Positions 1-12,491 of a stretch of 64,000 bases of DNA are shown here, in pieces. The position numbers and the translations under genes are program-made. The DNA is from Streptomyces mobaraensis NBRC 13819 = DSM 40847 (GTDB lineage Bacteria > Actinomycetota > Actinomycetes > Streptomycetales > Streptomycetaceae), in the NCBI RefSeq assembly GCF_017916255.1, contig NZ_CP072827.1:3410001-3474000 (forward strand), written 5' to 3'. The first letter of the stretch is position 1. Each line of letters begins with the position of its first letter. Under the pieces are notes generated by a model. It was not told the origin of the DNA and did not search any database. It was given only the letters and a program-made list of their open reading frames with translations.

Positions 1-1922
1 GCGAGCGTCACCGAGTCGACGCCGGGGCGGGTGCCGGCGGCCGTCACCCAGTGGACGCCCTCCGTGGGCACCCCGTAGGCGAAGCGGCGCGGGTGCGCGG
101 TGCCGTCGGCGGCGACGACGCGGTACGGGCGCTCGGTGACGGCGAGTCCGCCCGTCTCGTACGCCGGCCCGCCCTCCGTCGGGACGCGGTGCGGCGCGCA
201 CTGCCCGGTGTCGAGCAGGTGCCGGAGCAGCGGGTCCTCGGTGCGCCGCAGGTCGGGTTCGGGGAGCCGGGCCTCGATCAGCACCCGGGCCCGTACGGGC
301 TCCCCCGGCACCAGCGTCGACGAGGCGGTGAACGCGCCGGCCGCCGGGTCGAGGCGTACGTCGGTGCCGGGGCCGGTGACCTCCAGCAGGCCGGCCTCGA
401 CGAGCGCGGCCATCTCCTCGATCCGGGAGGCGGGCGGGCCGATGGAGAGGAAGGCGTTGAGCGGCGTGTACCAGCGCTCCAGTTCGTCGCGGTGGGAGGC
501 GCCGTCGAGCCCGGCGTGGTCCACGGCGAGCCGGATCTCGTTGCGGAGGTCGCGCAGCACGTCCAGGGCGGCCTTGAGGGGGCCGTCCACGTTCCCCTCG
601 CGGGCGGCGCGCGCGTCGGCCCGCAGCCGGTCGAGCAGCCAGCGGCGGAACTCCGCGCGGTCGGCGAAGTCGCGGCCCTTGTGCGGGGCGGCGAGCCGCT
701 CCCAGTCCCAGCGGTGGCGCGGGGCGATGCCGAAGGCGTCGAGGAGTTCCTCGCGCTCCCCGGCCGCGCCCGACCCGGAAGACCCCGACCCGGCCGTCCC
801 GGCGGCCAGGTACCGCTCGGTGAACTCGGCGCGCTCCGCGCCCCGGCCGAGGGCGGTCAGCAGGGTGCCGTAGTAGACGCTCTCCACCTCGGCGGCGATC
901 AGCGGCCAGAGGTCGGCGGTGAACCGGACCGGCTCCCCGTTCCGCGCGCGGGCGCGCAGCGCGTCGATGCGCTCCGGCGTGAGCAACCGGGGCAGATACC
1001 GCCCGGAGACGCCCTTCTGGTTCTCACCGCGCGCGTGGTACGGGACGCCGCGCCGCGAGAACGCGTACAGGCGCGGCTCGCGCCCGGACGGCCGGTAGGC
1101 GAGACCGCCGTCCTCCGCGCGGACGTAGGTGCCTCCCCGCCCGGTGGTGAACAGGGCCATGTAGTCGAAGAAGTTGAGCCCCAGACCGCGCAGCAGGACG
1201 GGGTCGCCGGGCTCGATGCCGTCCAGGTCGGCGTCGGCCGGGTTGACCGGCGGCAGATAGCTGAGCCCGTGCAGCCGCGCGAGGTGGGCGGCGCGCGCCT
1301 CGGGGACGGTGGGCCGCGCGGGGACGTGCCCCTGGGCGAGGACGACGGCGTCGAGCCCGTCGAGCCGCGTTCCGTCGGCGAGCAGCAGGCTCTGCGGCCC
1401 GCCCGCCGCGCCGAGCGCGTCGGTGAGCGCGACGGCGCGCGAGCGGTGTGTACGCACGGTGAGGTGCGCGGGGGCGCCCGACAGCACGCGCCGGTAGCAG
1501 TCGTGCAGATAGCGGCCGTAGAACGCGCGGGTGGGGTACGCGTCGGGGCCGAGCGCCCGCGCCTCCCGCAGCACCCAGTCGTCCTCGCCGGCGCACTCGG
1601 CCAGGGACGCCACGTCCCGGGCCCACTCGTACAGGGTGGGCCCGGGTTCCACGGGCCCGTCGATCCGCGAACTGCCGTCCGTGAACAGGGTGATCTGCGA
1701 GGCGACGGTGTTCATCAGCAGGTGCCGCGACTGGTCCGGGCGCCAGACGGCGCCCGCTCCCGGCAGCGCCGGGTCGACGAGGTGGACGGTCACCGCGCCG
1801 TGCGAGGGGGCGGCCCGCTCGTTGGCGCAGAGCCGCTCCAGTACGGAAAGGCCGCGTGGTCCCGCGCCCACCACGCATGTCTCGAAGGTGTCGGTCTGCG
1901 CACGAGGCGCTCGGGCAGCCAC
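1..1922 (-). CDS. FAD/NAD(P)-binding protein, C-terminus beyond window
   Basis: The N-terminus carries a Rossmann dinucleotide-binding signature (CVVGAGPRGLSVLERL), followed by a stretch typical of FAD/NAD(P)-binding domain proteins of the PF13454 type (LLMNTVASQITLFTD). That family resembles flavin-dependent N-hydroxylases and other oxidoreductases. The reading frame stays open to position 1, so at least 640 residues are present and the C-terminus lies outside. I chose the GTG at 1922 because a GGAG lies 8 nt upstream. The gene is the last one visible in the minus-strand biosynthetic cluster, downstream of the MFS transporter. A tailoring oxidation is inferred; the substrate cannot be told. 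Confidence 0.8.
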   Translation of the reverse strand, partial: MAARAPRAQTDTFETCVVGAGPRGLSVLERLCANERAAPSHGAVTVHLVDPALPGAGAVWRPDQSRHLLMNTVASQITLFTDGSSRIDGPVEPGPTLYEWARDVASLAECAGEDDWVLREARALGPDAYPTRAFYGRYLHDCYRRVLSGAPAHLTVRTHRSRAVALTDALGAAGGPQSLLLADGTRLDGLDAVVLAQGHVPARPTVPEARAAHLARLHGLSYLPPVNPADADLDGIEPGDPVLLRGLGLNFFDYMALFTTGRGGTYVRAEDGGLAYRPSGREPRLYAFSRRGVPYHARGENQKGVSGRYLPRLLTPERIDALRARARNGEPVRFTADLWPLIAAEVESVYYGTLLTALGRGAERAEFTERYLAAGTAGSGSSGSGAAGEREELLDAFGIAPRHRWDWERLAAPHKGRDFADRAEFRRWLLDRLRADARAAREGNVDGPLKAALDVLRDLRNEIRLAVDHAGLDGASHRDELERWYTPLNAFLSIGPPASRIEEMAALVEAGLLEVTGPGTDVRLDPAAGAFTASSTLVPGEPVRARVLIEARLPEPDLRRTEDPLLRHLLDTGQCAPHRVPTEGGPAYETGGLAVTERPYRVVAADGTAHPRRFAYGVPTEGVHWVTAAGTRPGVDSVTL

Positions 1923-2125
1923 GGAACGCGCTCCATTCGGTACGCCCGCGCGGACCGGTCGGACCGCGGGGGCAGGGGCTGTTGAGGGGGGTTGGCGGAC
2001 CGAGGGGGTTCGCCCCCGGTCCGTACGGGCGAGCGGGCGGGGCGATCGGCCACCGCGGCACGGCACTCCGGGCGAGGACGCCCGGCCGCCGCGGCACGAC
2101 GCGACGGCCGGGGCCCGGGCCCTGG

Positions 2126-3841
2126 TCAGCCGGTCGGCGACTCCTCGGAGGCGGCGGACCCGGCGGACGCGCGAGGCTTCCCGCCCCGGACCGGGCCGGC
2201 CGGATCCCCCGGCCCGTCGGCGGCCGCCGCCGTCCCGCCCCGCAGCCACACCAGCGCGACGACGGCGGAGAGCAGGCCGATGCCGGCCGTCAGCCACATG
2301 GTGGTCTGGAGGGCGTCGAGGAACGCGTCCGCCGCCCGGTCGAGGATGGTCCGGGCCGACCGGACGGCGGGCAGCAGCTCCTTGAGCTCCGCCTGCGACG
2401 CGGCGTCCCGGGCGCCCTGGAGCTCCCCCGCCCGCTCGGTCACCTCGCGCAGCGCGCCCGCCGTGCTGCCGAGGGAGTCCCCGGCCTGGTCGCGGACGGA
2501 GGCGGGCAGCGGGTCGGTGGTGTCGCCGAGCTTGTGGCGGTACACCGCGCCGAGGACCGCGCCGAGCACGGCGATGCCCAGGGCGCTGCCGACGTGCCGC
2601 GCGGTGTTGGCGAGGGCGCTGCCGGCGCCCGCCTTCTCCTCCGGGACCATGGCGACGGTCGCCGCCATCGCCGCCGAGAACGCCAGGCCGAAGCCGAGGC
2701 CGCCGACGAACTGGGCGGCGCCGAACCGCCAGATGGGCGTGGACGCGCCGAGCAGGCCGATCAGCCCCAGCCCGGCGGACATCAGCACCGCGCCCACCGC
2801 GATGGCGGAGGCCGCGCCGAACCGCTTCACCAGTCCGTCGCTCACCCCGGCGCTGATCATCGAGCCGACGGCGAGCGGCAGCATCAGCAGCCCGGAGTCC
2901 AACGGGCTGTAGCCGCGCAGGATCTGAAGGTAGAAGACGACGACGAAGCTGGCGCCCATCGCGGTGAAGAAGATGATCGCGAGGGCTCCGGAGCCCGCCG
3001 CGAACCGCGGCCTGCGCAGCAGCCCGAGGTCGACGGCCGGGTTGGCGGCCCGCCGTTCCACCTTCGCCAGGACGGCGTAGAGGAGGACGCTCGCGACCAG
3101 CGGCACCCAGACGACCGCATCCGCGAGGGTGGAGCGTTCGCCGCCCTCGATGATGCCGAACACCAGGGCGCCGGTGGCCGCGGTGGAGAGCAGGACGCCG
3201 GGGAGGTCGATCCGGGCGGTGCTGTTCCCGCCGCGGTTCTCCGGCACGCAGAAGACGATCAGGCCGATCGCCACCAGCACGAACGGCACGTTCACCAGCA
3301 GGGCGGAGCCCCACCAGAAGTGCTCCAGCAGGGCGCCGCCGATGATCGGGCCGGCGGCGATGCCGACGCCGGCCGCGGCCGACCAGAGGCCGATGGCCTT
3401 GGCCCGCTCGTGCCGCGGCACGGCGGTGGTGATCACGGCCATGGTGCAGCCCGGCACCACCGCCGCTCCGACGCCCATCGCGGCCCGCCAGCCGATGAGT
3501 TGGCCCGCGCTCCCGGACCACGCGCCGGCGGCGGAGACCAGGGCGAAGAACACCAGCCCGGCGACCAGCACCTTGCGCCGCCCGTAGCGGTCGCCCAGCA
3601 GTCCGGCGGTGAGCAGCAGGGCCGCGAAGGTGAGCGTGTAGGCGTCCATCGACCACTGGAGCGAGGCGTTGGAGGCGTCCAGGTCCTTCTGGATGGAGGC
3701 CAGGGCCACGGTCAGGACGGTGTTGTCCATGACGGCGATGAACATGCACAGCGACATCGCACCGACGATCAGCCACCTGCGGGGGTGACCGGCCTCCGAT
3801 GGCCCTGGCGCCGTACCGCTGCTCTCGGTCTCGGTTGTCAT
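2126..3841 (-). CDS. MFS drug/metabolite exporter, DHA2 (14-TM) type
   Basis: This 571-residue integral membrane protein begins with a first helix containing DNTVLTVALASIQ and a GDRYGRRK motif A loop, features of the DHA2 drug:H+ antiporter family. About 14 hydrophobic segments run through residues 25-540. A long loop near residues 430-500 and a charged C-terminal tail (PVRGGKPR) follow. The start is ATG with GAGAGGAAAG just upstream. It lies 100 nt downstream of the acyl ligase gene in the same orientation. A role in self-resistance or in export of the product of this cluster is the natural inference. Confidence 0.9.
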   Translation of the reverse strand: MTTETESSGTAPGPSEAGHPRRWLIVGAMSLCMFIAVMDNTVLTVALASIQKDLDASNASLQWSMDAYTLTFAALLLTAGLLGDRYGRRKVLVAGLVFFALVSAAGAWSGSAGQLIGWRAAMGVGAAVVPGCTMAVITTAVPRHERAKAIGLWSAAAGVGIAAGPIIGGALLEHFWWGSALLVNVPFVLVAIGLIVFCVPENRGGNSTARIDLPGVLLSTAATGALVFGIIEGGERSTLADAVVWVPLVASVLLYAVLAKVERRAANPAVDLGLLRRPRFAAGSGALAIIFFTAMGASFVVVFYLQILRGYSPLDSGLLMLPLAVGSMISAGVSDGLVKRFGAASAIAVGAVLMSAGLGLIGLLGASTPIWRFGAAQFVGGLGFGLAFSAAMAATVAMVPEEKAGAGSALANTARHVGSALGIAVLGAVLGAVYRHKLGDTTDPLPASVRDQAGDSLGSTAGALREVTERAGELQGARDAASQAELKELLPAVRSARTILDRAADAFLDALQTTMWLTAGIGLLSAVVALVWLRGGTAAAADGPGDPAGPVRGGKPRASAGSAASEESPTG

Positions 3842-3941
3842 CTTTCCTCTCAGCGGGTCGGCCGGCCGGACGGCACGGCGCGCGGACGTGCCCGCGAGCG
3901 GGGTCCGCGCGCCGCGCCCTCGCGGCCGGTTGACGTGACCG

Positions 3942-5645
3942 CTACGTCCAGGTGCCGTAACCGATGCCGTCGGCGTCCTTGAGCAGCTGCTCGCGGAGCA
4001 TGACGCGGCGCACCTTCCACGTGGCGGTTCGGGGGAACTCGTCCCACCGGATGTGGATGGGCTCGGCCATCTCCGGCAGGTCCGCAGTGGCCGCGCGCCA
4101 CTGCGCCTCGGTCACCGGCTGGTCGAACTGGGAGCTGTAGACGGGCTGCGGCTTCCCGCCCGCGACGGCGAGGACGATCACCTCGGTGGTCCGCGGCAGC
4201 CGGTCCAGCAGCACGTCCTCGATCTCCAGGGCGCTGGCGCCGGGGATCCGGTCGACCTCGCGGTCGATGAGCCGGACGGCGCCGAGGCGGTTGATCACCG
4301 CCATGTCGCCGAGGTTCCACCAGTGGCCCTCGCGCTTGAGGTCGTGCCGCTCCTTCTCGCCGACGTAGGTGAGGCAGCGGCCCGGCGCGGAGAACTGGAT
4401 CAGGCCGACCTCGCCCCGGCGCACCGGGATGCCCGTGTCCGGGTCGACGGCGCGGAGCCTGCCGAAGCCCGGGACGGGCCAGCCGAGGACCTGGGTGGGC
4501 GGCGGACGGTGGCCGCGCCGCTTGACCGAGCCGCGCGTGTACGGGCGGATGGCCACCGCGCCGGCCTCGGTCTGGCTCCAGGACTGCACCCAGACGGGCA
4601 GCTTCCGCTCGGTCGCGGCGAGGAAGGTGCGCACGGTGCGGGTGTGGATGGCGTCGAAGGAGTTGACGAAGACGCGCACGTTGGCGAACGGCTTGGCCGG
4701 GTCCTGTGCCAACTCCTCCCAGGCGAGGAAGGCGTTGGGCAGCGTCTCGACGAACGTCGGCTTGTGCTCGACGAGCAGGTCGCGGACGACCGGCGCGAGC
4801 GGGTCCGACATCATGACGAGCTTGGGCGCGACGGTCGCCAGCGGCAGCAGCCCGGTGATGATGCGCTGGTGCGAGTACGGCTCGCAGAACGCGACGGTGT
4901 CGTCGTCCCGCAGCCGGAAGAACGGCCACCGCTCGGCCTCGACCAGCCCCAGCGAGTACAGCGACTCGGCCGAGTGCAGCACCAGCTTGGGGACACCGGT
5001 GGTGCCCGAGGTGTGGGTGATGACCATCGGCTCTTCCCAAGCGCGCAGCCGGGGTTCGACGACCGGGCCGCCGCGCAGCCCGTCGAAGGAGACGACGTCG
5101 GGCCGGTCCTCCGGGACGTCGTCGACGCAGGCCGTCTTCTCAGTGAGCTCGGCGACGGCCTCCTTGTCCAGGCCCATCCGCTCCAGCGCCTGCCGGTCCG
5201 TGATCAGGAACGGCTTCTCCAGCCGGCCGAGCATCACCGCGAGGGTGCGCGCGTCGTGGTGGTCGGTGATCAGCGCGGGCACGGCGCCGATCCGCGCGGC
5301 GGCGGAGGCGAGCAGGGCGACGTCGAGGTGGTTCCGCTTCACGACGGCGACCCGGTCCCACTCCCGCACCCCCAGCGCGTGCAGCCGGGACGCGAGGTCG
5401 TCGACGAGCGCGGCCCACTGCAGGTAGCTGCGCTCCAGCGGACCGTCGCGGTCCACGTCGGGGGCGCGGTCGACGATGACCGGGTTGCGGGGGTGCCGCT
5501 GGGCGGCGAGGTGCCAGACCTCGCCTATGCGGCCGGTGATGGGGACTCGGGAGAGGGGGGTGAGGCGTTTGCGGTAGCGGGTGGGGGCGTAGTCGGTGAG
5601 GAAGGTGGGGCGCGTGCGCTTGGCTTGTGTGGTTTCTGCGGTCAT
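3942..5645 (-). CDS. AMP-dependent acyl-CoA/ACP ligase (ANL superfamily)
   Basis: A 567-residue adenylate-forming enzyme. The P-loop core THTSGTTGVPKL lies near residues 210-221, the motif around SWSQTEAG is present, and the RLIDREVDRIPG segment near the hinge is followed by a short C-terminal lid. It would activate a carboxylic acid as acyl-AMP and pass it to CoA or to a carrier protein such as the ACP encoded just upstream. I chose the ATG at 5645 because AGGTGG lies 5 nt before it; a longer in-frame extension runs into the intergenic repeat and lacks a good site. The terminal Lys expected in such ligases may be the one in TWKVRRVML. Confidence 0.88.
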   Translation of the reverse strand: MTAETTQAKRTRPTFLTDYAPTRYRKRLTPLSRVPITGRIGEVWHLAAQRHPRNPVIVDRAPDVDRDGPLERSYLQWAALVDDLASRLHALGVREWDRVAVVKRNHLDVALLASAAARIGAVPALITDHHDARTLAVMLGRLEKPFLITDRQALERMGLDKEAVAELTEKTACVDDVPEDRPDVVSFDGLRGGPVVEPRLRAWEEPMVITHTSGTTGVPKLVLHSAESLYSLGLVEAERWPFFRLRDDDTVAFCEPYSHQRIITGLLPLATVAPKLVMMSDPLAPVVRDLLVEHKPTFVETLPNAFLAWEELAQDPAKPFANVRVFVNSFDAIHTRTVRTFLAATERKLPVWVQSWSQTEAGAVAIRPYTRGSVKRRGHRPPPTQVLGWPVPGFGRLRAVDPDTGIPVRRGEVGLIQFSAPGRCLTYVGEKERHDLKREGHWWNLGDMAVINRLGAVRLIDREVDRIPGASALEIEDVLLDRLPRTTEVIVLAVAGGKPQPVYSSQFDQPVTEAQWRAATADLPEMAEPIHIRWDEFPRTATWKVRRVMLREQLLKDADGIGYGTWT

Positions 5646-5692
5646 GGGGTCCACCTGTGGTCGTGAGTGAACGTTGCTGTGGGGGGAGTTGG

Positions 5693-5862
5693 GGGTGCCC
5701 CTGTCCCGCCCTTTCACCGTTTCTTGCGGGGGCAAGCCCCCCGCAACCCCCGGGGACGGGCTATCCAGCCCGTCCGGCGTTTGAGGACGAGCGGCGAAGC
5801 CGCGAAAAGGGGGGGTCTGGGGCGCAGCCCCAGGAAACGGCGAAGGGGTGGGACTGGGGCGA
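5693..5862. repeat. Dispersed palindromic intergenic element, copy A
   Basis: A G-rich imperfect palindrome between the ligase and ACP genes. The core GTCCGGCGTTTGAGGAC is at 5772-5788. The left arm (CCGCCCTTTCACCGTTTCTTGC) has an inverted, degenerate partner on the right (GGAAACGGCGAAGGGGTGGG). The same core and an arm recur at 30121-30225 in the window. I know this motif as a common short interspersed intergenic sequence in Streptomyces chromosomes; its function is unknown. Its position inside an otherwise tightly packed operon could affect mRNA stability. Confidence 0.7.
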
Positions 5863-5871
5863 ACCCCCCGG

Positions 5872-6135
5872 CTATCCGGCCCGCACCGCCGCCCCCTCCG
5901 CGATGTACCGAGCCATCCCCTCCAGCGACCCGATCACCGCCTCCTCCACATCGTCGTCCCAGATCAGATCGAACTCGTCCTCGACCGCGACCAGGAACTC
6001 CATCAGCCGCACCGACGTCAGCCCGAGGTTCCGGAGCGATCCCGGACCCGTCTCGGTGACCGGCCGGCCGTCCAGCTCGACGGCGGCGACCCGCTCCAGC
6101 AGGGCGACCAGCCGGTTCAGCACCTCGTCCGTCAT
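5872..6135 (-). CDS. Acyl carrier protein (first of two in cluster)
   Basis: An 87-residue acidic helical protein of carrier-protein size. The phosphopantetheine attachment site is Ser41 in NLGLTSVRLMEF, followed by an acidic helix II-III region (VEDEFDLIWDDD). The ATG overlaps the stop of the upstream hydrolase gene by 4 nt (ATGA), implying translational coupling. It is presumably charged either by the AMP-ligase downstream or by the amino acid:ACP ligase upstream in the operon. It is distinct from the other ACP at 10208-10495, so the pathway probably keeps two different thioester intermediates. Confidence 0.85.
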   Translation of the reverse strand: MTDEVLNRLVALLERVAAVELDGRPVTETGPGSLRNLGLTSVRLMEFLVAVEDEFDLIWDDDVEEAVIGSLEGMARYIAEGAAVRAG

Positions 6136-7034
6136 ACGAGCGCTCCCGCCGCCCGCGGCACGAACGTCTCCGGGAACCCGCCGCCTTCGACGGACGCCAC
6201 GAACCGGGCGATCGCGTCCTGGAAGTCGTCCGGCCGCTCGAAGTACGGCAGGTGCCCGCACTCCTCGATGATCTCGACGGCGGCGCTCTTCAGCAGCCCG
6301 GCGACGTTCCGCAGCGTCGACTCGGTCGTCGAGAAGTCGTCGTCGCCGCTGAGCAGCAGCGTCGGCGCGGAGATCCGCTCCAGCAGCTCCGCCTTGTCCT
6401 CCGCCTCCAGCGCCTCGCGCAGGTTGGCGGCGAGCTGGGCCGTGGAGTTCATGGCGAGGAAGCGCTCGCGGAGGGCGAGGTAGGCGCCGGAGCCGCCCTC
6501 GGCGATGGCCTTCTCGCCGAAGACCAGCGGGTAGATGAGGTCGAACAGGGCCCGCGGCCCGCCCGTCTCCAGCGCGTTCAGCCAGGACTTGGCAATGCGG
6601 CGGCGGCGCGACGAGCCCTTCGGGCTGAGCGGCGGGCCGACGAGCACCAGGCCGGCCACCCGGTCGGGGTGGGCGACGGCGAAGTCGCGGCAGATCAGCG
6701 TGGAGATGGAGGTGCCGACCAGGTACGTCTTCTCGATCCCCAGCCCGTCCAGCAGCGACCGCAGGTCGTCGGCGTGCCGGGCGAAGTCGGCCGGCTTGCT
6801 CTCCGAGGCGCCCTGGTTGCGCAGGTCGTAGGTGAGCAGCCGGTGGCCGTCCACCAGGGAACCGGTGAAGTTCCGCCAGGCCGTGCTGACCACGTAGATG
6901 GTGGAGACGAAGGTGACCACCGGGCCGCTCTCGCCGCGCACCTCGTAGTACAGCTTGCAGCCGTCCTCCGTCTCGTGGAGGTCCTGCTTGCCGTCGTAGG
7001 CGAGGTCCCAGGACTCGATGCCTTCGCGCTTCAC
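6132..7034 (-). CDS. Alpha/beta hydrolase
   Basis: A 300-residue alpha/beta-hydrolase-fold protein. The nucleophile elbow is GTSIS with Ser109; an acid residue is offered by SGDDDFS and the catalytic His by ECGHLPYFERP near the C-terminus. The start is a GTG that overlaps the reductase stop codon by 4 nt (GTGA), with GGAAGGGAAAG upstream. In a carrier-protein pathway it could act as an editing or releasing thioesterase or in hydrolysis of an ester intermediate; this is inference. The N-terminus lacks a signal peptide, so it is cytoplasmic. Confidence 0.85.
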   Translation of the reverse strand: MKREGIESWDLAYDGKQDLHETEDGCKLYYEVRGESGPVVTFVSTIYVVSTAWRNFTGSLVDGHRLLTYDLRNQGASESKPADFARHADDLRSLLDGLGIEKTYLVGTSISTLICRDFAVAHPDRVAGLVLVGPPLSPKGSSRRRRIAKSWLNALETGGPRALFDLIYPLVFGEKAIAEGGSGAYLALRERFLAMNSTAQLAANLREALEAEDKAELLERISAPTLLLSGDDDFSTTESTLRNVAGLLKSAAVEIIEECGHLPYFERPDDFQDAIARFVASVEGGGFPETFVPRAAGALV

Positions 7035-8155
7035 GCGTTCTTTCCCTTCCGTGCGCGGTGGTGCTCCAGGTACCAGCCGATGAACTCGGCGAGCCGCTCG
7101 CGCGGCAGGGCGTGGCTGAGGACGTCGTCGTCGCCGAGCAGCTTCTGCACGTTGGCGACGTCGAACTCCTTGGTGCCGTTGACGTACGAGCGGTAGAACT
7201 CGACGCGCTCGTCGACCCGTTCGTCGATGAGCGTGAACTCGTCGGTGCTGTCGACGTAGTGCGGGTGCTTGATCGCGAGCTGGTCGCACAGCTCCGCGAG
7301 GGTGTCGCCGACGGTCGGCTGCTCGGTGTTGGCCAGGTGGTAGACGTCGGTGGGGCCGTCCGCCAGGGCCACGCCGACGGCCGCCGAGACGACGAGGTCG
7401 ACGGGGATGAAGTTGACCAGCGCGTCCTCGGTGGCGCGGAGCCGCAGCGGGCGGAAGACCAGCATGTCGCCGAGGGTGGCGCGGACCTCCGAGCGGGCCT
7501 TCTGAAGGCCCTTCACAAAGCCGTAGAGGCCGGTGAAGCTGGTCGCCGCGAAGGTGCGGCTGTGACCGATGACGATGCTGGGGCGGAAGATGCGGGTGCG
7601 CTCGAACCCGGCCGCGTACACCGCCCGTTCGGCCTGGATCTTGCTGTGCTCGTAGGCGTTGTTGCTGACCACGCCTTCCCCGACCCGCTCGGCGGGGATG
7701 AAGCCGGTGCGGTCGCCGGCCACGTAGGCCGTGGAGACGTAGTTGAACGTGGGCGACTTCAGCGCCCGGGCCAGCTCCAGGACGTGCTGGGTGCCGCCGA
7801 GGTTGTCGCGGAGGATCTCCTCCCGGCGGTGCTCCTCGTAGGCGAGCGAGGCGGCGACGTGCCAGACCTGCTCGACCTCGGGCAGCGCCGCCGCGTCCAC
7901 GCCGCACGCCTCGGCGGTGAGGTCGCCGGCCACGGCGTGGCAGCGGGTGGCGATGGCCTCGTCGAGGTCCGTGATCCCGTACGAGGCGGCGGCCGTGGTC
8001 AGCGCCGAGCGCAGCCGCTCGTCGGCGGAGAGGTCCTGGCGCGGCCGGACGACGCAGTGGATCTCGGCGTCGGTCCGGGCGAGGAGTTCGAGGACGAGGG
8101 CGCCGCCGACGAAACCGGTGGCACCGGTGACCAGGTGGTGGGGGACGTGCGTCAT
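7031..8155 (-). CDS. NAD(P)-dependent thioester-reductase-like SDR
   Basis: A 374-residue extended SDR of the NAD_binding_4 (male sterility / Lys2 reductase domain) type. The cofactor loop TGATGFVGG is at residues 10-18 and the catalytic Tyr-Lys pair is in the YEHSK motif. Stand-alone relatives reduce acyl-thioesters to aldehydes or alcohols, so a reductive release of a carrier-bound chain is plausible. The alternative is a sugar-epimerase-like role. It overlaps both neighbours by 4 nt and so is an integral part of the operon. Confidence 0.83.
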   Translation of the reverse strand: MTHVPHHLVTGATGFVGGALVLELLARTDAEIHCVVRPRQDLSADERLRSALTTAAASYGITDLDEAIATRCHAVAGDLTAEACGVDAAALPEVEQVWHVAASLAYEEHRREEILRDNLGGTQHVLELARALKSPTFNYVSTAYVAGDRTGFIPAERVGEGVVSNNAYEHSKIQAERAVYAAGFERTRIFRPSIVIGHSRTFAATSFTGLYGFVKGLQKARSEVRATLGDMLVFRPLRLRATEDALVNFIPVDLVVSAAVGVALADGPTDVYHLANTEQPTVGDTLAELCDQLAIKHPHYVDSTDEFTLIDERVDERVEFYRSYVNGTKEFDVANVQKLLGDDDVLSHALPRERLAEFIGWYLEHHRARKGKNA

Positions 8156-9024
8156 GCCGGGCTCCCGGAGGTGGGCAGGGCCGCGGCGAGCGCGGGCCAG
8201 TCGTTCAGGTCGTCGCCGTGGGCGTTGATCAGGGCGAGCGCGATGCGCTCCAGGCCGAAGGCGGCGCAGGCGCTGTGCGCGGTGCCGCCGCCGGGCAGCC
8301 GGACGGCGAACCGGGCGCCCAGGTGGTCCTTGTGGCAGTTGGCGGAGGCGATGGCCGTGCCGGGGTCCTCGGGGGACACCTTGGCCACGAACTCGTACTT
8401 CAGGTCCTGCTCCAGCTGGCTGGCGCGCATCAGGCGCCCACCGGGCCCGAAGAACGGATCGGTGGCCGACTTCACCTCGACGGCCACGCCCAGCTCGGCG
8501 AAGAGCTTCTCGCCGCGCTCGATCCAGGCGTTCCGCCAGGCGGTCACCGGCTCCTCGGCGCCGACGGTGACGAACTCGCGCATCCGGAACGTCCGGAACC
8601 GGCCGAGCTCGCTGGTGGCCTCGTGGCGGTAGCAGTAGCCGGCCACGTCGAAGTGGGCCTGCCCCTCGACCGTGCCGTCGGCGAGCCCGGGGTAGACCGG
8701 GTAGCAGGCGGCGGGCGCCAGCACGACGCCGTCGGCGTCCCCCTCCGTGGCATTCTGCGGGGCCATGGCGTTCACCGAGCCCAGCAGGTGCGGGAACGAC
8801 TCCGCGTACTCGGCGCGGTCGATGAGGGACCGGGAGAGCACCGGCGGGTGCCAGACCGGCCCCTCGGTGCCGCCCAGGGCGGTCAGCCGGGCCTGGAGAC
8901 CGGCGATCACCGCCTCGAACTTCGGGGTGAAGCGGTGGGTCCCCACCGCGCCGGCGGGCAGCGCCCAGCCCCCGGCCGTCAGGTCGTCGGCGGCGCGGGC
9001 CGCCGGCGTGTCGATGCTCGTCAT
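8152..9024 (-). CDS. Amino acid--[acyl-carrier-protein] ligase (class II aaRS-like)
   Basis: A 290-residue relative of the catalytic core of atypical seryl-tRNA synthetases that lacks a tRNA-binding arm. Motif 2 is visible as FRTFRMREFVTVG and motif 3 as AFGLERIALAL. Cys107, Glu150 and Cys253 match the spacing of the zinc ligands described for the Bradyrhizobium enzyme (Cys131, Glu176, Cys279). Characterised relatives adenylate glycine or alanine and load it onto the phosphopantetheine of a small carrier protein. The start ATG overlaps the dehydrogenase stop (ATGA). The likely partner is the ACP at 10208-10495, two genes upstream. Substrate identity is inferred from the family only. Confidence 0.85.
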   Translation of the reverse strand: MTSIDTPAARAADDLTAGGWALPAGAVGTHRFTPKFEAVIAGLQARLTALGGTEGPVWHPPVLSRSLIDRAEYAESFPHLLGSVNAMAPQNATEGDADGVVLAPAACYPVYPGLADGTVEGQAHFDVAGYCYRHEATSELGRFRTFRMREFVTVGAEEPVTAWRNAWIERGEKLFAELGVAVEVKSATDPFFGPGGRLMRASQLEQDLKYEFVAKVSPEDPGTAIASANCHKDHLGARFAVRLPGGGTAHSACAAFGLERIALALINAHGDDLNDWPALAAALPTSGSPA

Positions 9025-10211
9025 TCCTGTATCAGGTCCCCCGTGAGAAGCAGCAGTTCCGAATTGGCCAGCTCGAGGCGGCCGTTGGCGATCATCAGGC
9101 GGGCGGAGTAGAGGTCCCGCAGGTGGCGGGCGACGGAGTACGGGCCGGACTCGCTGTATCCGGCCATCCCGCAGATCTCCAGCGCCTGCTCCACCACCCG
9201 TACCGCGTCGACCGACACGCCGGTCTTCAGCGCGTTGGCCCGGACGGTCATGGCGGTGGTGTCCGCGTCCTGGGCGGCGTCCCACACGGCGTAGTCGTCG
9301 GCGAACCGCCGCACCGTGTCCTGGAGCACCCGCAGGCCGGCGTAGGCCCGGCCGAGGCGCGGGTCGTCCGCCGTGCGCCCGGCCTTGAGCTGGGCGCGCA
9401 TCCGGATCTTGGAGTACGCCACCGCGCGGCGCACGGCGTCCGCGGCGACGCCCGTCCACACGCCCGACCACAGCAGGTGCGAGAGCGGCACCATGCAGCG
9501 GGTGGCGGTCTCCCCGAACGGCTCGGGCAGCACCATGCCGGCGGGCACGGTCGCGCTCATCGTGAACGGCGGGCTGCACGTGCCGCGCATGCCCAGCGGG
9601 TTCCAGTCGCCGGTCCGCTCCAGCTCCGCGTGCTCGGCCATGACGAGCACGGCGACCTGGTCGGTCGGGGCGGCGTCGGGGCCCGAGCGGGCGGTGACGA
9701 GGAAGCCGTCGGCGTGCTCGCCGTACGAGACGGTGGTGGCCTTCTTGGTCAGCCGGACCGTGCCGTCGCCGGCCGGCTCCACGGCGGCGACGCTGCGCCG
9801 CATGTCGCCGCCGACACCCACCTCGGAGGTGATGGAGGCGATCAGCAGCTGCCGCCCGGCGATGTCCGCCAGGGCCGCCGCGATGGCGGGCGAGGCCGCG
9901 GCGCTCCGGGCCAGGCAGGCGACCTGGAGCTGGTGCATCGCCCAGATCATGGCGGTGGCGGCGCACCCGCCGGCCAGCCGGGCGCCGATCCGGGTCAGGG
10001 TGAGCGGGTCGAGGCCCTGGCCGCCGTACTCCTTGGGGATGGCGGCGGACAGCAGACCGTGCTCGCGGAGGGCGGCGACACCGGCGGCCGGGAAGGCCGC
10101 GTCGCGGTCGGTGGCGGCGGCGTGCTCGGCCGCCGCCTTCGCCGCCTCGACGGCCGCGTCCAGCGCCTGACGCTCCGTCAGAACGACGCGCTCGGCGGCG
10201 GGTGCGGTCAT
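9021..10211 (-). CDS. Acyl-CoA dehydrogenase family flavoprotein, atypical
   Basis: A 396-residue ACAD-fold protein with an N-terminal helical domain, a middle beta domain (ASITSEVGVGGDM replaces the usual TEPxxGSD signature) and a C-terminal helical domain (EICGMAGYSESGP). By-eye alignment shows no glutamate at either usual catalytic-base position: Ile at the MCAD position and Ser at the isovaleryl-CoA dehydrogenase position. It sits between an ACP gene and the amino acid:ACP ligase gene, overlapping both by 4 nt. I infer that it acts on an aminoacyl- or acyl-ACP. ClbF in colibactin and ZmaI in zwittermicin are precedents for ACADs acting on ACP-bound amino acids. Confidence 0.85.
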   Translation of the reverse strand: MTAPAAERVVLTERQALDAAVEAAKAAAEHAAATDRDAAFPAAGVAALREHGLLSAAIPKEYGGQGLDPLTLTRIGARLAGGCAATAMIWAMHQLQVACLARSAAASPAIAAALADIAGRQLLIASITSEVGVGGDMRRSVAAVEPAGDGTVRLTKKATTVSYGEHADGFLVTARSGPDAAPTDQVAVLVMAEHAELERTGDWNPLGMRGTCSPPFTMSATVPAGMVLPEPFGETATRCMVPLSHLLWSGVWTGVAADAVRRAVAYSKIRMRAQLKAGRTADDPRLGRAYAGLRVLQDTVRRFADDYAVWDAAQDADTTAMTVRANALKTGVSVDAVRVVEQALEICGMAGYSESGPYSVARHLRDLYSARLMIANGRLELANSELLLLTGDLIQE

Positions 10212-10495
10212 CGTCCGGCCCCCACGGCCTGGTCGCGGTCGCCGGTCAACTCGGCCAGGACGCCGGAGAGATGGGCGATCGAGGCGAACAGGGCGCGGCC
10301 GATGCGCTCCTCGGGGATCTCGACCGAGAGCCGCTCCTCCAGGGCGAGCATCACCCGCACGGAGGCCAGCGAGGTGAGCCCGGCGGCGTAGAGGTCGCCG
10401 TCGGCGGGCAGCTCGTGCGCGGTCGCGCCGAGGTCGGAGTGCCGGGCGAGCGCCTCACGGACGGCGTGCTCGCAGGGTATTGCGCTTTCGGGCAC
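10208..10495 (-). CDS. Acyl carrier protein (second of two, operon head)
   Basis: A 95-residue carrier protein with the phosphopantetheine Ser42 in AGLTSLASVRVML. GTG start, with AGGAG 8 nt upstream. It is the first gene of a run of six genes, each overlapping the next by 4 nt: ACP, dehydrogenase, amino acid:ACP ligase, SDR, hydrolase, ACP. Its adjacency to the dehydrogenase and ligase suggests it carries the amino acid loaded by the ligase. The 145 nt upstream (10496-10640) hold no promoter I can call with confidence. Confidence 0.85.
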   Translation of the reverse strand: MPESAIPCEHAVREALARHSDLGATAHELPADGDLYAAGLTSLASVRVMLALEERLSVEIPEERIGRALFASIAHLSGVLAELTGDRDQAVGAGR

Positions 10496-10640
10496 GGGAA
10501 GTACTCCTAGCCTTACAGAGAGTGCTGATGCGCGAGTGCGCGAAGCAAAGGGTGGGAGAGTGGAGAGATCGAACCCGCGGGGAGCCGCCCCTACGGGCTC
10601 ACCCTAGGGGAACTGCCGTTACGGATCGATGAGTTCGGGG

Positions 10641-11567
10641 CTACGCGCCCAGGGCGGCGACGGCTTCGTCGACGTGGGCCGCCAGCCGCTCCTCGCGGCC
10701 CCGCAGGTCGCGCAGCATGCGGACCAGGCGCCGCCGCCCCTCCGGCGAACCGCCGGACTCACGGGACAGCGTGTGCACCAGGTACCAGCGCCGGGTGAGG
10801 GACGCCGCCTCGACGGCGACGGCCTCCAACTCCGGTAGGGAGACCGCCAGATGGCGGAAGAGTCTGCCGAGGAAGTGCCGGTCGGCGGCGGCGCCGCTCA
10901 CGTCGAGGGTGCCGGACTCCGCCGCGTCGCACGCCTCGATGTACGCCGCGAGGGCCGCGGTGTCGCGTTCGTGGTGCGCGCGCCGGTCCTCGCTCACCGC
11001 CCGCGCCAGGTCGTGGGCGGACGGCTTGCGGGTGGGGCCGCCGGACAGCAGGAAGGTGCGGAAGCCGTCGGCCGCGTCCGCCGAGCGCAGGGTCCGCCAG
11101 CGCTCCTCGGGGTACCGGACGGGCTCCGGGTGGTTCATGGGGTCGACGACGGTGACCCCGTCCGCGTCCCGGCCGGTGAGCAGGACGCAGTGGGCGAGGT
11201 GTTCGACGCCCTCGTACTCCGAGGGCAGCCAGTAGGCGTCGACGGCCGCGGCGAGCGGGCGCCCGGCGGCCAGTTCGGCCTCCTCCAGGGCGCGCAGCTC
11301 CTCGTAGGAGCCGAACCGCCGCTCCTGGACCGGCAGTCCGTGGAGGCGGGCGGCCGCCGTCACCCAGCGGTCACCGCCCCGCAGGACGGATCCGCCGTCC
11401 CAGCCGAAGCCCCCGGTGGTGACGAGGACGTCCTCGGCGTCGGACAGCCCGTACCAGGCGGCGAGGTTCGCCACGCACTGCTGGTAGCAGGTGCCGAACG
11501 GCGTGGTCCCGGTATGGGCGGGTATGAGTTCTATGTCGGTGCGATGGGTCTGGTCGGTGTGCGGCAC
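10641..11567 (-). CDS. BtrH N-terminal domain (C39-like) putative acyltransferase
   Basis: A 308-residue protein whose first half matches the papain-like BtrH N-terminal fold. It has a nucleophile-like Cys27 in GTCYQQCVANLAAWYG, a His in EHLAHCVLLTG and an Asp in VVDPMNHPE. BtrH moves an acyl chain from carrier protein BtrI onto the amine of ribostamycin in butirosin synthesis, so this protein may transfer the product from an ACP to an amine. I chose the GTG at 11567 because GGAGA lies about 7 nt before it; an in-frame GTG at 11651 is possible. The second half is helical and of unknown role. Confidence 0.8.
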   Translation of the reverse strand: MPHTDQTHRTDIELIPAHTGTTPFGTCYQQCVANLAAWYGLSDAEDVLVTTGGFGWDGGSVLRGGDRWVTAAARLHGLPVQERRFGSYEELRALEEAELAAGRPLAAAVDAYWLPSEYEGVEHLAHCVLLTGRDADGVTVVDPMNHPEPVRYPEERWRTLRSADAADGFRTFLLSGGPTRKPSAHDLARAVSEDRRAHHERDTAALAAYIEACDAAESGTLDVSGAAADRHFLGRLFRHLAVSLPELEAVAVEAASLTRRWYLVHTLSRESGGSPEGRRRLVRMLRDLRGREERLAAHVDEAVAALGA

Positions 11568-11702
11568 TGTGCTGTCTCCCCCGTTCCGCCCGGTCCACCC
11601 GGGCGGCGGCGCACCGGCGGTGGTCCGCCGGCTCTGGTCGATGTGGAGCACGTTCCGTTGGTCGGTGGGCCGTGGCGCGACGTGACGCGGCGGGCCCGAC
11701 GG

Positions 11703-12491
11703 TCAGTCGGGTACCGCGAGGAGCTGGACCCAGCTCTGGGTGTAATGCAACCTGCCGTCGAGAGTGACGGGGCGCATTCCGGACACCGGGCCGCCGGCCA
11801 GTTCCTCGGCCAGTTCGCTCTCGATGCGCGCCGCGGTCTCCGCGGGCGTGCGCGCCTGCTCCAGCCACGGCCCCAACGGCCGCTGGACGTCGATGACTTC
11901 GGTGCCGCGTACGCTCCCGCCCGCGGCGGTGAACAGCTCGGTGATCCGGTCGACCGTGAGCATCGCGCCGTGCGAGGGATCGCGCAGCCGCTCGATGCGG
12001 TCGGGGTCGCCGCCCAGCTCGGGGCGGCGGACCATGTCGGCGACGACGATGCGCCCGCCGGGCCGGCAGACCCGCACCAGCTCCCGTACGACGGCCTCGG
12101 GGGAGGCCACGTGGTGGAGCGAGAAGCGGGTGACGACCAGGGAGAAGGAGGCGTCCAGGAACGGCAGCCGGGCGGCGTCGCCCTGCTGGTAGACGACCTG
12201 GGTCAGCCCCTCGGCGTCGGCCTCCCGCTTGCCCGTGGCGAGCATCTCGGGCGTGGCGTCCAACGCCGTCACATGCCGGACGCGGCCGGCGAGCGCCCTC
12301 GACACGAGCCCCGTGCCGCAGGCGACCTCCAGACAGACGTCCTCGGGCCGGGGGGCGGCGAACTCAACCAGTTCCCGCAACCGCATGGTGAACGCGGTGT
12401 TCAGCCGCGCGTCCTCGAACGTACTCGCCTGACGCGCGAACTCCTGCCGGTTACGCGCTAACTGGTCCTCGCCACCACTCCGGAGCGACAT
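11703..12491 (-). CDS. Class I SAM-dependent methyltransferase
   Basis: A 262-residue Methyltransf_11-type enzyme. Motif I is CLEVACGTGLVSRAL, the acidic loop VTALDATPEML follows, then GDAARLPFLDASFS (motif II region) and VRVCRPGGRIVVADM (motif III region). It resembles UbiE-like small-molecule methyltransferases and does not carry features of nucleic-acid enzymes. It is preceded by a recognisable promoter and followed 135 nt later by the BtrH-like gene, so these two may form the head of the cluster transcript. The methyl acceptor is unknown. Confidence 0.85.
   Translation of the reverse strand: MSLRSGGEDQLARNRQEFARQASTFEDARLNTAFTMRLRELVEFAAPRPEDVCLEVACGTGLVSRALAGRVRHVTALDATPEMLATGKREADAEGLTQVVYQQGDAARLPFLDASFSLVVTRFSLHHVASPEAVVRELVRVCRPGGRIVVADMVRRPELGGDPDRIERLRDPSHGAMLTVDRITELFTAAGGSVRGTEVIDVQRPLGPWLEQARTPAETAARIESELAEELAGGPVSGMRPVTLDGRLHYTQSWVQLLAVPD

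Follow-up and report, generated by a model that had tools for sequence, protein, structure and literature searches.

The ANL enzymes CreM, Tri17, and AvaA6 use nitrite and form N–N bonds (PMC11705231). AzsF and Tri22 oxidize carrier-bound hydrazinoacetate (PMC10445470), and in the route proposed for fragin, a carrier-bound intermediate undergoes N-oxidation, nitrogen transfer, and reductive release (PMC5878181). We analyzed a 64-kb stretch of the Streptomyces mobaraensis chromosome (the window) that holds most of a 12-gene cluster, in which genes for aminoacyl-carrier enzymes share a strand with homologs of CreE and CreD. We give an even chance to the reading that this cluster joins a dissociated aminoacyl-carrier cassette to the aspartate–nitrosuccinate (ANS) pathway of nitrous acid formation, and that its product is amino-acid-derived and contains an N–N bond. 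Gene families, ANS homology, and synteny form the basis of this reading, and every chemical step in it is inferred. The cluster itself is real, rare, and conserved. No description of such a cluster was found in the literature searched.

The cluster extends over approximately 14 kb, from the gene of a methyltransferase (MT) through that of CreD. Eleven of the genes reach into the window and CreD lies outside it. Coordinates are counted from base 1 of the window (positions 3,410,001–3,474,000 of the 7.57-Mb chromosome), with negative numbers to its left. The family labels rest on Pfam and NCBIfam profile matches. The genes, from the right end of the cluster, are the following:

11703..12491, minus strand: MT, S-adenosylmethionine-dependent methyltransferase, right end of the cluster (PF08241, 90.7 bits)
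10641..11567 (start 11567 or 11651), minus strand: BtrH_N papain-like acyltransferase (PF14399, 36.6 bits against a cut-off of 29.7)
10208..10495, minus strand: acyl carrier protein 1 (ACP1), putative carrier for the aminoacyl group (PF00550, 31 bits; NF005480, 80.6 bits against a cut-off of 72; Ser in GLTS)
9021..10211, minus strand: flavoprotein of the acyl-CoA dehydrogenase (ACAD) fold (PF02771, 50.7 bits)
8152..9024, minus strand: amino acid:[carrier protein] ligase, seryl-tRNA synthetase (SerRS)-like (PDB 4h2w, E = 8.2e-53; NF005479, 269.7 bits, under the cut-off of 357)
7031..8155, minus strand: thioester-reductase-like extended short-chain dehydrogenase/reductase (SDR) (PF07993, 138 bits)
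6132..7034, minus strand: alpha/beta hydrolase (PF00561, 87.4 bits)
5872..6135, minus strand: ACP2 (PF00550, 24 bits; Ser in GLTS)
3942..5645, minus strand: ANL (AMP-forming) ligase (PF00501, 141.3 bits)
2126..3841, minus strand: exporter of the major facilitator superfamily (MFS) (PF07690, 185.2 bits)
1..1985, minus strand: CreE-like flavin adenine dinucleotide (FAD) enzyme, first plausible start GTG at 1922, stop at −93 (PF13454, 143.5 bits)
−245..−1648 (L009:18352-19755), minus strand: nitrosuccinate lyase CreD (NF052556, 776 bits against a cut-off of 650; PDB 5xny, E = 8.9e-171)

An earlier, sequence-only reading of the window had described eleven co-directional genes of these families, and their positions, strand, and labels all hold. 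Its count of six 4-nt overlaps fits the number of genes chained in this manner, ACP1 through ACP2, but not the number of junctions, which is five. The FAD enzyme with which it ended the cluster is present, but its gene leaves the window, is CreE-like, and adjoins CreD. The same reading had noted that no polyketide synthase (PKS) or nonribosomal peptide synthetase (NRPS) module is present. This agrees with our result: the two free ACPs are the sole PF00550 matches listed for the interval 2.997–4.140 Mb of the genome, so no such module, and no A-T-R NRPS, lies near the cluster.

The link to nitrous acid comes from the left end. CreD exceeds its equivalog cut-off, and 5xny, which it matches, is the crystal structure of the cremeomycin-pathway CreD. 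The NCBIfam profiles gave no function for the FAD enzyme; we call it CreE-like because homologs occur at 37 of 40 CreD loci, sampled out of the 131 CreD matches listed over the cut-off. From homology, CreE and CreD are predicted to constitute the ANS route from aspartate to nitrous acid, which would make a product with an N–N bond probable. This bond is a reactive group, and few natural products contain it. The CreD gene belongs with the cluster beyond the left edge of the window, and the ANS pathway likely serves the cluster's product, which is probably of the diazo, N-nitroso, or diazeniumdiolate type. CreD over the cut-off was found in 119 of 394 genomes.

The string from MT to CreD recurs in S. 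huiliensis SCA2-4 and Streptomyces sp. I05A-00742 with 80–96% protein identity; in both, CreD, CreE, the MFS gene, and the ANL gene follow the cassette in order. As these species are close relatives, the string shows retention rather than independent assembly. A search with the ligase collected 77 loci, and five of them (L012–L015 and L019) contain seven genes in the same order: BtrH-like, ACP1, ACAD, ligase, SDR, hydrolase, and ACP2. The hydrolase is 70–96% identical in these five, MT is kept at L012–L015 with 70–93% identity, and the GLTS motif of both ACPs and the YxxxK motif of the SDR are kept in all six cassette loci, the window included. Conserved synteny had been put forward as a test in the sequence-only reading, and it was found: two other species share the whole set, and three further loci share the seven-gene core, so the arrangement is beyond chance. 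The cassette is infrequent. At E = 1e-90, one of 396 genomes of the phylum contained the hydrolase, and at E = 1e-30, one of 199 genomes of the genus contained the BtrH-like gene, in each case the own genome only, and distant versions could escape at these thresholds.

The five loci differ in their surroundings. The cassette is accompanied by CreE and CreD in two relatives, by genes for ATP-grasp and DUF3419 proteins in two further members of Streptomyces, and by PKS modules in a metagenome-assembled genome (MAG). The last two contexts are located as follows:

L014:1722-14900 (Streptomyces sp. R302) and L015:1777-14879 (S. roseolus): variant cluster of cassette, MT, ATP-grasp genes, MFS, and DUF3419
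L019:1635-20454 (Mycobacteriales MAG): cassette with type I PKS genes and a phosphopantetheinyl transferase gene as neighbors

In R302 and S. roseolus, MT, a gene weakly similar to circularly permuted ATP-grasp, MFS, ATP-grasp, and the DUF3419 gene (PF11899, 149 bits in R302) come before the cassette, their families having been assigned on the R302 genes, and the product of this variant is probably of the peptide type. In the MAG, a KS-AT-DH-ER-KR-ACP module and the BtrH-like gene share 4 nt; next, on the opposite strand, come the phosphopantetheinyl transferase gene and a further PKS gene. S. huiliensis, I05A-00742, and S. roseolus each have a CreD over the cut-off, which in S. roseolus lies on a contig other than that of the cassette.

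The enzymes of the cassette were compared with their nearest characterized relatives. The SerRS-like ligase aligns with Bll0957 of Bradyrhizobium over residues 23–279, and its C107, E135, and C253, which we take to be zinc ligands, show no variation among 18 homologs and align with the Bll0957 chain. Characterized relatives of this ligase use small amino acids. The cluster shares with the Bll0957 system the ligase homology, the partner ACP family NF005480, to which ACP1 belongs above the cut-off, and an adjacent ACAD homolog. It differs from that system in the added SDR, hydrolase, second ACP, BtrH-like enzyme, and ANS genes, and in a ligase that falls below the NF005479 equivalog cut-off. That an amino acid is loaded on one of the ACPs, as first proposed, is thus well in line with a predicted stand-alone Bll0957-type ligase encoded beside its kind of partner carrier. 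The ACAD-fold flavoprotein, second ACP, reductase, and BtrH-like protein named in the same proposal were all found as genes.

The ACAD homolog adjoins the ligase in 66 of the 77 loci, and the ligase/ACP/redox theme is the same in other bacteria. This constancy would suit the proposal of Aravind and colleagues for SerRS-like ligases (the note in proof of PMC2922099), by which the system would aminoacylate a cell-surface sugar. We regard this function as highly improbable here, as the called genes of the cluster include an MFS exporter, CreD, and CreE but none for sugar or lipopolysaccharide. In a separate group of loci (L016, L018, L020, L021, L023, and L075), members of the ligase family accompany genes that by eye resemble SbnA/SbnB (2,3-diaminopropionate synthesis-like), together with a free condensation-type protein, an HTH regulator, and two ABC exporters. 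Gene labels at the loci with G and L numbers, for example MMPL transporter, second ANL gene, nitrate reductase, or C domain, are readings by eye unless based on Pfam.

The BtrH-like protein shares PF14399 with BtrH of butirosin biosynthesis and has an invariant Cys-His-Asp set (C27, H126, and D142 in 10 sequences). Unlike BtrH, it belongs to a separate small group, with nine homologs among the 8000 candidates scored and none in the 198 other genomes of the genus draw. It had no match in the PDB at E = 0.1, and the NCBIfam and PHROGs profiles gave no function for it.

The ACAD-fold flavoprotein, for which a confident structure model was obtained (pLDDT 92), probably oxidizes the amino acid on ACP1. 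The chemistry was approached through the presumed base position, which we take to correspond to MCAD Glu376, the acidic catalytic base of acyl-CoA dehydrogenases. In an ungapped count from the conserved LM[IV] motif, where MAFFT placed a three-residue gap and with no superposed structure, 60 of 67 ACAD homologs have Asp or Glu at this position. All six cassette members carry Gly, Ser, or Thr (Gly in the window), and the residue is replaced in one of the 61 others (Gly, L037). A single-sequence search of the PDB gave DnmZ, presumably an N-oxidizing enzyme, as the first match, and Foldseek placed TdsC/DszC monooxygenases at ranks 1–11. The replaced residue and these matches would favor an oxygenase, and N-hydroxylation is a possibility that we hold at somewhat less than even.

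The enzyme may instead be a dehydrogenase that yields an imino- or dehydro-aminoacyl-ACP. The cassette would then supply a unit to PKS, ATP-grasp peptide, and ANS pathways alike, with no N-hydroxylation. Two results speak for this alternative and against the N-oxidation that we favor. The ACAD-family profile matched canonical dehydrogenases first (7p98 at 1.9e-27; DnmZ at 2.9e-23), and VIA-align tied dehydrogenases with monooxygenases, its list including ColB1, which dehydrogenates carrier-bound cysteine, and the acyl-ACP dehydrogenase TcsD. The position of the cassette next to PKS modules in L019 also fits a dehydrogenase, whereas the non-acidic residue in six of six cassette members and the Foldseek ranking do not. 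Fold comparison of the model does not separate the two classes, and we consider the dehydrogenase slightly short of a balanced bet as well. The claim that the amino acid is oxidized on the ACP stands as to the presence of the flavoprotein, and its dehydrogenase role is doubtful as the acidic residue is missing in the cassette members. At most of the loci L022–L088 (Proteobacteria, Gemmatimonadota, and others), the ACAD homolog adjoining the ligase mostly carries the Asp of an NDR motif where the base would be expected.

The role of the ANL ligase bears on the N–N bond. Among its relatives in Streptomycetaceae, 52 of 150 matches listed have a listed CreD no more than 25 kb away, where approximately 0.63 would be expected at random positions (8.5-Mb genomes assumed; listed rows only, that is, 150 ANL matches and 131 CreD matches over the cut-off). 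In a 52-row tree, the window's ligase falls in a 42-row clade (support 100/99), whose three subclades have 17 of 19, 1 of 15, and 4 of 8 rows at CreD loci by our count, the window being one of the four in the last. Ligases of its close type occur in 7 of 394 genomes. A homolog with 58% identity (G006) lies in the order ANL–transporter–CreE–CreD, the same as in the window, and another with 56% identity (G034) is followed by a transporter and CreD, with no CreE found at the locus. Four divergent close homologs (G006, G034, G238, and G267) each have, by eye, a second ANL-like gene nearby, and so need no loading role themselves.

Several observations weigh against nitrite activation, and with it against our reading of the cluster. 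For the other 98 of the 150 relatives, no listed CreD is in the vicinity, and the 150 rows are related to one another and thus not independent. The window's ligase lies outside the AvaA6-like diazotase clade (AvaA6-like rows, 100/100), reaches 59.6 bits with the NF058622 equivalog (cut-off 975), and matches Tri17 at E = 6e-11 only. The genomes of R302 and the L019 MAG have no CreD over the cut-off, so the cassette does not need the ANS route; it is independent of it, and the ANS genes were added in the lineage of the window. What counts most against our reading is the version in R302 and S. roseolus, where the cassette occurs with an 82% identical ANL ligase and no CreD or CreE in the locus. 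There, the ANL gene begins 1 nt past ACP2, which favors a role as ACP2 loader.

This arrangement leads to an alternative close to the view of the sequence-only reading. The ANL ligase would load a carboxylic acid on ACP2, the BtrH-like enzyme would join the acyl group to the amine of the aminoacyl-ACP1, and the SDR would release an N-acyl amino aldehyde or alcohol, with CreE and CreD acting in a later or separate step. The core of the ligase, that of a normal member of the AMP-binding family, and the occurrence of the cassette in other contexts agree with this course. Its weak points are the conservation of CreD and CreE beside the cassette in three species and the linkage of the ANL clade with CreD far above chance, and we consider it rather unlikely. 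The earlier suggestion of an acyl loader for ACP2 is thus doubtful: it gains from the coupling to ACP2 in two relatives and loses from the association of the clade with CreD. Because the R302 and S. roseolus ligases are coupled to ACP2 with no CreD near, we rate the use of nitrite by the ANL ligase as equally likely to hold or to fail, and the reading as a whole no higher.

ANL genes were also seen in other settings. At L155:4497-6791, a CreE-like gene adjoins an ANL ligase of the window's clade, with no CreD over the cut-off nearby. The CreD loci L114, L116, L127, L136, L153, and others (Streptomycetaceae) show the order Polyketide_cyc2 protein–ANL ligase–(FAD_binding_3 monooxygenase)–CreE–CreD, and four loci with the Polyketide_cyc2–ANL–CreE–CreD string adjoin nitrate- or nitrite-assimilation-like genes (by eye). 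Another ligase of the ANL clade, with 39% identity, occurs in S. mobaraensis itself at G000:C1:6428271-6429869 (L166); the match holds one in-frame TGA.

With the above results in hand, the favored reading can be set out as a sequence of steps. CreE would oxidize L-Asp to nitrosuccinate, from which CreD would release HNO2. The SerRS-like ligase would activate an amino acid and load ACP1, and the ACAD-fold flavoprotein would oxidize the carrier-bound amino acid, the favored guess being at the alpha-nitrogen. The ANL ligase would activate nitrite with ATP and form the N–N bond, like CreM and Tri17. The SDR may reduce the thioester to an aldehyde or alcohol, as proposed for the R domain in valdiazen biosynthesis, and the BtrH-like enzyme may catalyze acyl transfer between a carrier and either an amine or the second of the two ACPs. 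Methylation would be the task of MT, and export that of the MFS protein. A more specific version treats the cassette as a fully dissociated stand-in for an NRPS module (ligase as A, ACP1 as T, BtrH as C, and SDR as R), with N-oxidation by an ACAD-fold enzyme deprived of its base and N-nitrosation, using nitrite from ANS, by ANL ligases of a new clade giving a carrier-bound diazeniumdiolate or alpha-diazo acyl group, and with the cassette feeding PKS and ATP-grasp peptide pathways elsewhere. We hold this version to be unlikely. The ligase/ACP/ACAD/second ACP/reductase/BtrH set and the synteny bear out part of the interpretation in the sequence-only reading, which had not foreseen nitrous acid from CreE and CreD as a probable reactant.

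Compared with the CreM, AvaA6, and Tri17 systems, the cluster is alike in a CreD over the cut-off, an adjacent CreE homolog, and an ANL gene in the same gene string. It differs in the placement of its ANL ligase outside the AvaA6-like clade, with a bare match to Tri17, and in the likely nitrogen acceptor, which would be a carrier-bound amino acid and not an aryl amine or a hydrazone. In the triacsin and azaserine pathways, the ACAD-type enzymes Tri22 and AzsF act on a carrier-bound Gly-derived unit, and triacsin also has Tri17 and the ANS route (PMC10445470 and PMC11705231); no cupin/MetRS hydrazine synthetase or GNAT is among the cluster's called genes. The likeness to fragin and valdiazen (ham) lies in the proposed logic only, by which an amino acid on a carrier undergoes N-oxidation, nitrogen transfer, release by reduction, and acylation (PMC5878181). 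The cluster has no NRPS, its ligase, ACP, and reductase are separate and unrelated proteins, and its route to the nitrogen donor would be ANS. Paulomycin was considered for its ACP, ACAD, and acyl-CoA synthase genes and set aside; no tRNA-synthetase-like gene is named in the portion of PMC4425429 concerned.

The cluster is predicted to load an amino acid on a small carrier without the usual giant enzymes. To our knowledge, no product has been assigned to the SerRS-like aminoacyl-carrier ligases. If the favored reading is true, it joins these ligases with ANS nitrous acid, a link absent from the literature searched, and gives them a role. It would also define a portable seven-gene cassette for mining, and indicate a second ANL clade as a candidate for nitrite use in N–N bond formation.

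The flanks of the cluster in related genomes speak for its insertion between them. The GGR gene was present in 20 of 21 relatives searched, and eight loci were fetched. MT, ligase, and CreD gave no match between the GGR and NLPC-nuoA flanks in any of these eight, where the flanks are 2–8 kb apart. In the window, the same flanks are approximately 20 kb apart.

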